Positions 36,366 to 38,366 of a stretch of 41,726 nt of DNA are shown in pieces. Origin of the DNA: Terriglobia bacterium (GTDB lineage: Bacteria; Acidobacteriota; Terriglobia; Bryobacterales; Bryobacteraceae); NCBI GenBank assembly GCA_025358575.1, contig JANYJA010000239.1:1-41726 (forward strand), in the 5' to 3' direction. The notes under the pieces are model-generated. The model was not told where the DNA came from. It did no database searches and saw only the letters and a list, made by a program, of their open reading frames with translations. Within the stretch, counting starts at the first letter, position 1. Each line of letters opens with the position of its first letter. A program made the translations under genes and the position numbers.

Positions 36366-38186
36366 TTATCGATAGCCCGCGGCTTGAAGCTCGAACAGCT
36401 CAGCGTAGCGTCCGCCTAGCGCGACCAAGCTGCGATGGCTGCCCTGCTCCTGAATTTTTCCGTCCGCGAGAACCAGAATTCGGTCGGCCATGCGGACGGT
36501 CGAGAAGCGATGCGAGATGAGCACGGACATGCGGTCGCGAGTCAAGTCGGCAAATCGCTGAAACACTTCGAACTCGGCGCGGGCATCGAGAGTTGCAGTG
36601 GGCTCGTCGAGGATTAGAAGCTGCGCGTCGCGCATATAAGCACGGGCCAGCGCGATCTTCTGCCATTCGCCGCCGGATAGATCGACGCCGCCTTCGAACC
36701 GGCGTCCAATGACCTGATCGAACTTGGCGGGAAGGCGGGCGATCAACTCGTCCGCCAGTGATTTGCGGGCAGCGCGGTCCAAGCGGCTTTGTTGGTTCAT
36801 CTCTTCGACCTTGCCGAAGCCGATGTTCTCGCGAATCAGCAAGTCATAGCGCATATAGTCCTGGAAAATCACGCCGATTTCGCGGCGCAGATCGTCGATG
36901 GAGTAATCTCGGAGATCGTTGCCATCAAGGAGAATGCGGCCGGAGGTGGGGTCGTAAAGTCGCGCGAGAAGTTTGACGAGCGTCGTCTTTCCAGCGCCAT
37001 TTTCGCCGATCAGCGCGATCTTCTCGTGCGGTTCCAGGTGAAAGTTGATGTTGTCAATTACCAGGCGAGAACTGCCCTGGTACCCGAAACTCACATTCTG
37101 AAATTCGAACCCAATCCGGATGGGGCGCGGAGCGGGGAGCGAGTTCGGGGTGGTCCGGATGGCTGGCTGCATCTCGAAGAATTCAAACAAGTCTTTGAGG
37201 AAGAGAGCCTGCTCGGAGATATCGGAGAATCCGGACAGGATTTTTTCGATATACATACGTGAACTGGAAAAGGCCCGAGTGAGAAAGGTAAAGTCACCGA
37301 GAGTTAAAACGCGGGCGAGAGTCTGCTGCAAGACCACGGCGTAAGCGCCGTAATAACCGCCAGTAGAAACTAAGTTCAAAAACGAACCCATAGTCGCCTT
37401 CTTGATTGCAAGTGATTTGTTTTCAGCGAAGACGCGGTCAGAGACCCGCCGGTATCGGTCGGCGAGGTAATCGCCAAGGCCGAAAATCTTGATCTCCTTC
37501 GCGCTCTGGTTGCTGGCGCCGAGCATGCGGAGATAGTCCAGCTCGCGGCGTTGCGGGGTCCACTTGTACAGCACCGAATAGGCCAGCGATGTAAAGTGCG
37601 TCTCGCCTAAAAAGGCAGGGATGACGGCCGCGACGAGAAGCGCCATCAGCCAAGGTGAAAAAATGATTAGCCCAGCAGAAAGAGAAAGTAGCGTCACCGT
37701 GTCCTGGCAGATGTTCAGAAGCGACGCAATCAGACCCAAGCGGCCCGTGGTCTGACGCCGGGCACGTTCGAGTTTGTCGTAAAAGACGGGGTCCTCGAAG
37801 GACACCAAATCAAGTTTAGCGGCGTGCTGCATCAGTTGAACGCTTATTCGATTGGTGAATCGGTCGCCCAACAAGCTGTCGCAGAGGGCGTTTGCGCGGC
37901 CCAGAAGGTCGCTCAGAATGGCCAAACTGACTTCGATGGCCACCAAGGTCCAAATGTGGCGCAAATCTCCGTGGCGGGCGGTAATCCAGCCGACCACGGA
38001 ATCGATGATGAGGCGGGCGATCCAGAGAGTAGCGAGCGGGATAAGAGCCCGGACTAACCGCAGCGCAACGCTGGAGAGAATGAGCGGAGGGCTGGTCTGC
38101 CAAACCATGCGCAGTAGCGGCCGGATATTGCGAAGAGAGGCCAGCCGCGAACGCCAATCAGTCTGGCCAGCGGGTCGCTTGGGCAT
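36366..38186 (-). CDS. ABC exporter (fused membrane and ATPase domains)
   Basis: A 606-residue half-transporter. ATG 38186 is chosen; the frame opens further to TTG 38222, but that falls close to a terminator hairpin. Residues about 35-330 hold six membrane helices of the exporter fold. The ATPase has Walker A GENGAGKTTL (about 394), signature LSGGEWQKIAL (about 502), Walker B LLILDEPTATLD (about 520) and the switch His in LISHRFSTVR. It likely pumps lipids, peptides or drugs; the substrate is not shown. No ribosome binding site is visible, and a small hairpin (38196-38209) covers the region before ATG. Confidence 0.9.
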   Translation of the reverse strand: MPKRPAGQTDWRSRLASLRNIRPLLRMVWQTSPPLILSSVALRLVRALIPLATLWIARLIIDSVVGWITARHGDLRHIWTLVAIEVSLAILSDLLGRANALCDSLLGDRFTNRISVQLMQHAAKLDLVSFEDPVFYDKLERARRQTTGRLGLIASLLNICQDTVTLLSLSAGLIIFSPWLMALLVAAVIPAFLGETHFTSLAYSVLYKWTPQRRELDYLRMLGASNQSAKEIKIFGLGDYLADRYRRVSDRVFAENKSLAIKKATMGSFLNLVSTGGYYGAYAVVLQQTLARVLTLGDFTFLTRAFSSSRMYIEKILSGFSDISEQALFLKDLFEFFEMQPAIRTTPNSLPAPRPIRIGFEFQNVSFGYQGSSRLVIDNINFHLEPHEKIALIGENGAGKTTLVKLLARLYDPTSGRILLDGNDLRDYSIDDLRREIGVIFQDYMRYDLLIRENIGFGKVEEMNQQSRLDRAARKSLADELIARLPAKFDQVIGRRFEGGVDLSGGEWQKIALARAYMRDAQLLILDEPTATLDARAEFEVFQRFADLTRDRMSVLISHRFSTVRMADRILVLADGKIQEQGSHRSLVALGGRYAELFELQAAGYR

Positions 38187-38220: not shown

Positions 38221-38255
38221 AAAATAGAAAAGCCCGCCGAATCAGGACGGGCTTT
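38221..38255 (-). terminator. Rho-independent terminator
   Basis: On the minus strand AAAGCCCG pairs with CGGGCTTT (38229-38236 with 38248-38255), and a CC/GG pair lies inside the loop. The hairpin is followed by TTCTATTTT, a U-rich run. In the plus direction no T run follows, so it acts on minus-strand transcripts. It lies 35 bases before the ABC exporter start. Confidence 0.75.
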
Positions 38256-38330
38256 CGCAATCCCCCGGTTACCCGGGCGATGTTTGGGAGAATCATTTTC
38301 AACGGCTTCGCAGTCGCTAAAAACCTAAGT
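38221..38330 (-). ncRNA. Candidate small structured RNA or leader
   Basis: A span of about 110 bases bounded by a good promoter (38337-38366) and a terminator (38221-38255). It contains a nine-pair stem closed by a GUAA tetraloop (38260-38281) with one G-G mismatch. No open frame of note is present. It lies between the DUF6599 gene end (38516) and the ABC exporter start (38186), on the same strand. It may be an independent small RNA or a regulated leader that ends early. I could not match it by eye to 6S RNA, SRP RNA, tmRNA, RNase P or a common riboswitch. The 5' end is inferred from the -10 box. Confidence 0.5.
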
Positions 38331-38336
38331 GATTGG

Positions 38337-38366
38337 ATCTTAGATTTTCCGGGGCACCCCCGTCAA
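38337..38366 (-). promoter_or_regulatory. Strong sigma70-type promoter
   Basis: On the minus strand a -35 TTGACG (38361-38366) is followed by 18 bases and -10 TAAGAT (38337-38342). A T-rich run lies just upstream of the -35. Transcription would start near 38330. No coding start lies within 140 bases downstream, which supports a noncoding or leader transcript. Confidence 0.6.

Follow-up and report, generated by a model that had tools for sequence, protein, structure and literature searches.

Trans-encoded small RNAs (sRNAs) of enterobacteria have their own promoter and terminator and an unpaired seed that binds an mRNA encoded elsewhere, at its ribosome-binding site, and for those that cover the Shine-Dalgarno sequence a block of ribosome binding is established. 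FsrA, an sRNA of Bacillus subtilis, is presumed to be assisted by FbpA-C, which are small basic proteins. Type I toxin-antitoxin systems comprise a tiny open reading frame (ORF) controlled by an antisense RNA that covers its translation start (PMC3919570, PMC6563280). The regulatory RNAs of Acidobacteria are little catalogued: the table of one review gives four annotated sRNAs (PMC9029176), and a further candidate RNA from the Bryobacteraceae, the Solibacter-1 motif, is given in its source table for Solibacter usitatus only and as doubtful as an RNA (PMC2864571); it could in principle be the same RNA as the present sRNA.

The minus-strand element described here lies in a 41,726-nt stretch of DNA from a member of the Bryobacteraceae (the window, meaning the whole stretch analysed). 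Like the enterobacterial sRNAs that cover a Shine-Dalgarno sequence, it combines its own predicted promoter and terminator with an unpaired seed and the ribosome-binding site of an unlinked mRNA as putative target; unlike them, it has a single microprotein mRNA as its dominant target, in co-evolution with a linker of two segments, and no sequence relation to them was found in Rfam. In common with FsrA and FbpA-C, a small RNA is found together with a very small basic protein, but the mRNA of that protein is the target here, whereas FbpA-C act as presumed helpers. What it shares with type I toxin-antitoxin systems is a tiny ORF whose translation start is covered by an antisense RNA; it differs from them in that the peptide is cationic rather than hydrophobic and in that the genes are unlinked. 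A trans-acting sRNA covering a Shine-Dalgarno sequence is a known kind of regulator; searches of Rfam 15 and of the literature gave no record of this sRNA family, of the lysine-rich microprotein that it targets or of the linker that co-evolves in two segments. The features concerned are as follows (window coordinates, except for the last line).

39598-38516, minus strand: DUF6599 gene (PF20244), the constant upstream neighbour
38366-38361, minus strand: -35 element TTGACG; TTGAC or TTGAT kept in an alignment of 46 loci
38342-38337, minus strand: -10 element TAAGAT, 18-nt spacer from the -35 element; TAnnnT kept across loci
38329-38336, minus strand: conserved start region CCAATCAC, from the alignment
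about 38330, minus strand: predicted transcription start, placed by its distance to the -10 element
38330-38221, minus strand: predicted sRNA of about 110 nt, from fold and covariance model
38324-38295, minus strand: hairpin H1, from fold and conserved pairing
38286-38295, minus strand: antisense seed TGATTCTCCC, complementary to the Shine-Dalgarno region of the target
38279-38283, minus strand: second antisense segment ACATC, pairs with GATGT 5' of the target Shine-Dalgarno sequence
38281-38260, minus strand: hairpin H2 with GUAA loop, in the first family (Bryobacteraceae) only
38256-38228, minus strand: intrinsic terminator stem-loop with U-rich tail to 38221; 9 of 12 consensus pairs changed on both sides
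36366-38186, minus strand: ABC exporter gene (PF00005), start ATG at 38186; variable downstream neighbour, not the target
G000:C8, 3916-3883, minus strand: microprotein (target) gene in the window's genome, on a contig other than that of the sRNA

The predicted 110-nt RNA folds with an energy of -45.7 kcal/mol, as compared with a mean of -33.58 (sd 3.71) for shuffled sequences (z -3.27; none of 200 shuffles as good), into H1, H2 and the terminator, with an unpaired linker between H1 and H2. Scans for promoters (2 found, 2.9 expected) and for terminators (8 found, 7.4 expected) are at chance level when taken alone, so that the case for an sRNA rests on conservation. An earlier note, made from the letters of the window, had proposed the minus-strand promoter TTGACG-18-TAAGAT, which is present at the place claimed and conserved in the 46 aligned loci; the transcript of about 110 bases that it placed behind this promoter agrees, as a sequence prediction, with the 110 nt that extend to the U-rich tail, and its terminator with a U run is borne out by the two-sided changes in the stem. 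The GUAA-capped stem is present as well, with eight pairs in the fold (five plus three around a mismatch) instead of the nine described, and the inventory of hairpins, correct for H2 and the terminator, had overlooked H1. A coding RNA was considered and rejected: the ATG found here (in AATGATT) is replaced in 28 of 44 aligned sequences, which read CTGATT, and is therefore not a conserved start, in agreement with the earlier view that the RNA contains no convincing reading frame.

In 57 of 63 distinct sequences, at least 10 of the 11 pairs of H1 are formed, and two-sided changes are seen at one pair (T-A in 15, G-C in 44) and at another (T-A in 48, C-G in 7). Arms paired with their own partners give 10.59 of 11 pairs and those with shuffled partners 10.18 (best of 100 shuffles 10.32), a margin that is small because the stem is so conserved; moreover, the hairpins had been selected by a 3'-arm motif, a choice that biases them towards pairing. 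Within the consensus structure, 10 of 21 pairs show a two-sided change in at least one sequence, and nine of these ten are in the terminator. RNAalifold, applied to a first alignment from which two doubtful loci (L038 and L052) were excluded, recovered H1 and the terminator and not H2, the sequence and length of which vary. A lack of conserved stem pairing in relatives, which was to have counted against the RNA, is contradicted by H1 and by the covariation in the consensus. Among the unpaired stretches, conservation is highest for TGATTCTCCC in the Bryobacteraceae, and for CTATTCTCCC or CTGTTCTCCC in a second family.

A DNA search with the sRNA gives matches in 105 of 200 Bryobacteraceae genomes, and a covariance model built from 44 sequences (the alignment of promoter and RNA comprising 46 loci) gives matches in 180 of the 200, nearly always once per genome. 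The first covariance model matched 21 of 396 genomes in a sample of the phylum, three of the 21 from the Bryobacteraceae. From this sample, all 26 foreign loci were screened for the motif and 13 were read; four (L154, L155, L158 and L161) are homologues, and the other nine show little beyond a terminator. The homologues of the second family, which is probably the Acidobacteriaceae, have TTGACA, TAGTAT, an 11-bp hairpin, ATTCTCCC and a terminator, without H2, and this diverged form is found in 137 of 150 genomes of that family by a DNA search with one of its loci. The DUF6599 gene stands beside the sRNA in the second family too (27 of 30 loci), though the downstream genes change. A joint model matched 238 of 399 genomes of the class; among the tabulated matches, those outside the two families are one weak match each in families f93 and f96 (E 0.007 and 0.001, respectively). 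At gathering score, Rfam 15 gives no match in the window, which excludes a known Rfam RNA, and only an adjoining tRNA in nine homologous loci; at E values up to 10, there are only sub-threshold resemblances to a hairpin followed by a terminator. The best of these is to ctRNA_pGA1 (RF00236), which has the same order of hairpin and terminator, but is a plasmid antisense RNA, and the match (21.4 bits, gathering score 45) does not cover H1.

Searched for alone in the window's genome, the complement of the seed has 26 matches, the majority of which do not open a long ORF, and recurrence across genomes is therefore needed to point to a target. The pattern GGGAGAATCA-N(2-12)-ATG occurs 114 times in 51 of 61 family genomes, compared with five times for the reversed pattern, and an identical 17-mer, GGGAGAATCAATCGATG, is common to 23 of these 61 genomes. 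A Lys/Ala-rich ORF, for example MKNATKKAAPKKKAAPKKKK, begins at 14 of 30 such loci that were read, and a pattern for the peptide, with no reference to the seed, finds the gene in 133 of 200 Bryobacteraceae genomes. By inspection, it has its own promoter (TTGACA...TATATA), a hairpin in the 5' untranslated region (5'UTR) beside the pairing site and its own terminator; the mRNA is monocistronic and unlinked to the sRNA gene, the sRNA and target positions being 2.83 and 4.56 Mb in one genome (G143) and 0.90 and 6.41 Mb in another (G144). The ORF extends over 18 to at least 50 codons (the longest peptide, in G141, was counted to 50 residues, a lower bound), with a median of 23, and encodes 49% Lys and 30% Ala; the third positions of its Lys and Ala codons are variable, as expected for a translated ORF. 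A Pfam search with the microprotein of the window's genome, a sequence very short for such a search, gave no match. Of the 180 genomes that have an sRNA match, 120 contain the peptide pattern, as do 13 of the 20 that lack one, so that presence is not visibly linked, figures that say little either way because both searches miss members.

The pairing energies of the two RNAs were compared across 80 genomes from 31 genera (89 genomes had the target, and nine of these, without an sRNA sequence, were left out), the targets having been selected by peptide and the sRNAs by model or DNA search, neither by complementarity; sRNA positions were reassigned beforehand in five genomes (G063, G068, G131, G143 and G193). 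Own sRNA-target pairs have a mean of -24.60 kcal/mol, versus -21.35 for pairs from different genera. With one pair per genus, the mean is -24.66 kcal/mol versus a permuted mean of -21.95 (sd 0.43), and none of 20,000 permutations is as low; kinship is handled here by the use of one genome per genus only, the tree being otherwise ignored. The signal comes both from the part of the linker after the seed, tested with the region 5' of the Shine-Dalgarno sequence (z -4.7; 0 of 20,000), and from the seed, tested with the Shine-Dalgarno region itself (z -3.6; 14 of 20,000). The H1 arm (z 0.9), H2 with the terminator (z -0.5) and the coding start (z -0.3) are flat controls, and some signal is seen with the 5'UTR hairpin next to the site (z -2.7; 100 of 20,000). 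For 8 of the 80 sRNAs, the own target is equalled or surpassed in pairing by over half of the foreign ones; in the window's genome the own pair has -23.7 kcal/mol, and this share is 46%.

Matching changes are found in both helices, as illustrated by AACGTAA/TTACGTT (genus g50), AATCGAA/TTCGATT (G162) and ATCGAAT/ATTCGAT (G083), and by the compensatory sRNA/target pair CGATTCTCCC/GGGAGAATCG in G010 and G080. In G043, G125 and G143 (all g44) and in G172 and G180 (both g47), the sRNA has TGTTTCTCC opposite GGAGAACA in the target, a pairing that leaves a single base bulged. At least six consecutive complementary bases are found for the second segment in 60 of the 80 pairs. The sRNA is complementary to an mRNA encoded elsewhere, and this complementarity is conserved with compensatory changes: the sRNA and the microprotein mRNA have co-evolved, a result that computation establishes, as it does the gene, its conservation and the complementarity itself.

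The second family has the seed pair CTATTCTCCC/GGGAGAATAG where the Bryobacteraceae have TGATTCTCCC/GGGAGAATCA. The predicted complement GGGAGAATAG occurs before an ATG in 54 of 60 second-family genomes (86 matches versus 18 for the reversed pattern), and a Lys-rich ORF, for example MATKKKAKKKKKH, begins at 23 of 30 such loci that were read, an independent confirmation because the peptide was not in the search pattern. First-family sRNAs have a mean energy of -21.53 kcal/mol with first-family targets and of -16.95 with those of the second family, and second-family sRNAs have -21.85 with their own targets and -19.52 with those of the first, the 25 second-family targets in this comparison having been found by seed, which favours them.

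Taken together, these sequence comparisons suggest, with a probability of roughly 0.8, that the element encodes a single-copy, trans-acting, base-pairing sRNA that blocks translation of an unlinked Lys/Ala-rich microprotein mRNA. The RNA would be expressed from its own sigma-70-type promoter and end at its own terminator, and the unpaired linker between H1 and H2 would pair with the mRNA around its translation start through two segments, TGATTCTCCC covering the Shine-Dalgarno stretch GGGAGAATCA and AACATC(A) pairing with (T)GATGTT just 5' of it. The Shine-Dalgarno sequence of the target, GGGAG, lies 8-9 nt before the ATG and inside the pairing site, and a block of ribosome binding is therefore the most likely effect; we infer repression as its direction, in that pairing would prevent binding of the 30S subunit and hence translation, perhaps with the participation of Hfq. 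Such a chaperone is available in the Bryobacteraceae genomes searched: Hfq is above the cut-off in all 13, that of the window included. In the same order, G720 and G722-G725 (genus g353, family f89) gave no Hfq match.

A second target in part of the family, not a general one, is possibly the mRNA of HU (PF00216): 17 of 30 HU loci were readable, and in seven of them (L465-L469, L472 and L480) GGGAGAATCA stands a few bases before the Shine-Dalgarno sequence, while in the other ten the site is absent or partial. The HU gene of the window's genome (L477) keeps GAGAATCA only. The sRNA and microprotein genes also have a start-region motif in common, by inspection AATCAC in much of the first family (window 38329-38336; L204) and TTCGYYAG, with exceptions, in second-family examples. 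The motif is not strictly shared, since ATCAC of the mRNA corresponds to ACTAC (G122) or ATTAC (G060 and G105) in the sRNA, and a common signal for both genes is for this reason only a suggestion. A tentative and rather unlikely extension is that the sRNA and the microprotein form an old, dedicated nucleic-acid-packing circuit, in which the peptide might bind DNA, RNA or polyphosphate in the manner of a histone H1 tail, while a single sRNA would set its level, and in part of the family that of HU as well, via the same linker. If so, the shared motif would make both genes answer the same signal.

An explanation that would leave the RNA a purely local role is that of a leader or attenuator of the ABC exporter, in which regulated termination at 38256-38228 sets read-through into the exporter 35 nt downstream, as the earlier note had also considered. 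The position and orientation in the window's genome fit, the distance of 35 bases from the U run to the exporter is valid provided that translation begins at the ATG at 38186, close to the point from which homologues align, and among loci chosen for the exporter, 16 also carry the RNA just upstream. Compared with these, loci chosen for the RNA present a different picture: of 30 in the first family, with flanks of 1.5 kb or less, the exporter follows in 4, RNase J but no exporter in 11 and neither gene in 15, whereas the DUF6599 gene is upstream in 29, the window included. A leader would stay with its gene; here, the upstream neighbour is kept and the downstream gene changes, so the RNA is not the leader of the exporter, though some read-through into that gene is conceivable in the window's genome. 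The trans target, moreover, accounts for the unpaired part that is most conserved. This explanation is very improbable, and the element is, judging by the promoter, hairpins and terminator conserved in the alignments, an independent transcription unit and small-RNA gene, as the first of the two options in the earlier note had it, rather than the exporter switch of the second; the target had not been foreseen. Hardly less improbable is that Shine-Dalgarno-like purine runs produce the complementarity incidentally, as a by-product, and that the RNA has some other function. Purine runs before ATG are common, for which reason the rarity of the reversed patterns (5 against 114 and 18 against 86) proves little by itself, but such a by-product leaves unexplained the second helix outside the Shine-Dalgarno sequence, its compensatory changes and the preference for the own target, as well as the same kind of gene being the target in two families with different seeds.

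The remaining explanations accept the pairing and assign it another purpose. It is possible, though improbable, that the pair works like a type I toxin-antitoxin system, with the free cationic microprotein toxic and the sRNA as antitoxin; the ribosome-binding site of a tiny ORF is indeed covered by a dedicated antisense RNA, as in that class, but the peptide is about half lysine, the genes are far apart in G143 and G144, and they are spread through two families, mostly in single copy, unlike mobile modules. A member of the class as usually defined can be rejected, there being no hydrophobic toxin and no neighbouring genes (overlap or proximity is usual, not universal, in the class, and the genes lie on different contigs in the window's genome). 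Still less probable is a reversal of roles, with the microprotein mRNA serving as a decoy and drawing the sRNA away from other mRNAs, that of HU for example. The GGGAGAATCA sites before HU and the start-region motif common to both genes are compatible with such a decoy, whereas the conservation of the ORF itself, in which third positions of the Lys and Ala codons vary, the position of the site over the Shine-Dalgarno sequence of the microprotein mRNA and the absent or partial HU sites in most readable loci argue against it.

With a trans-acting sRNA directed at the microprotein mRNA as the preferred reading, sequence comparison alone has led to a new sRNA family, its putative main target and the pairing sites, the evidence being that two unlinked genes have co-evolved. 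The comparison also draws attention to a conserved microprotein of about 23 residues, probably small enough to be missed by gene callers, the function of which is directly testable. Two further loci may be mentioned. A second tiny Lys-rich ORF of the window's genome, MSKGMDRKKETKKPKKDKK (L213/L442, G000:C117:18129-18144, minus strand), stands behind GGCGAAGGGAGAATCAATTATG, a possible site for the sRNA linker, and an ORF that is DksA/TraR-like by eye (L458, G004:C1:323100-324000) starts behind GGGAGAATCACCATG.
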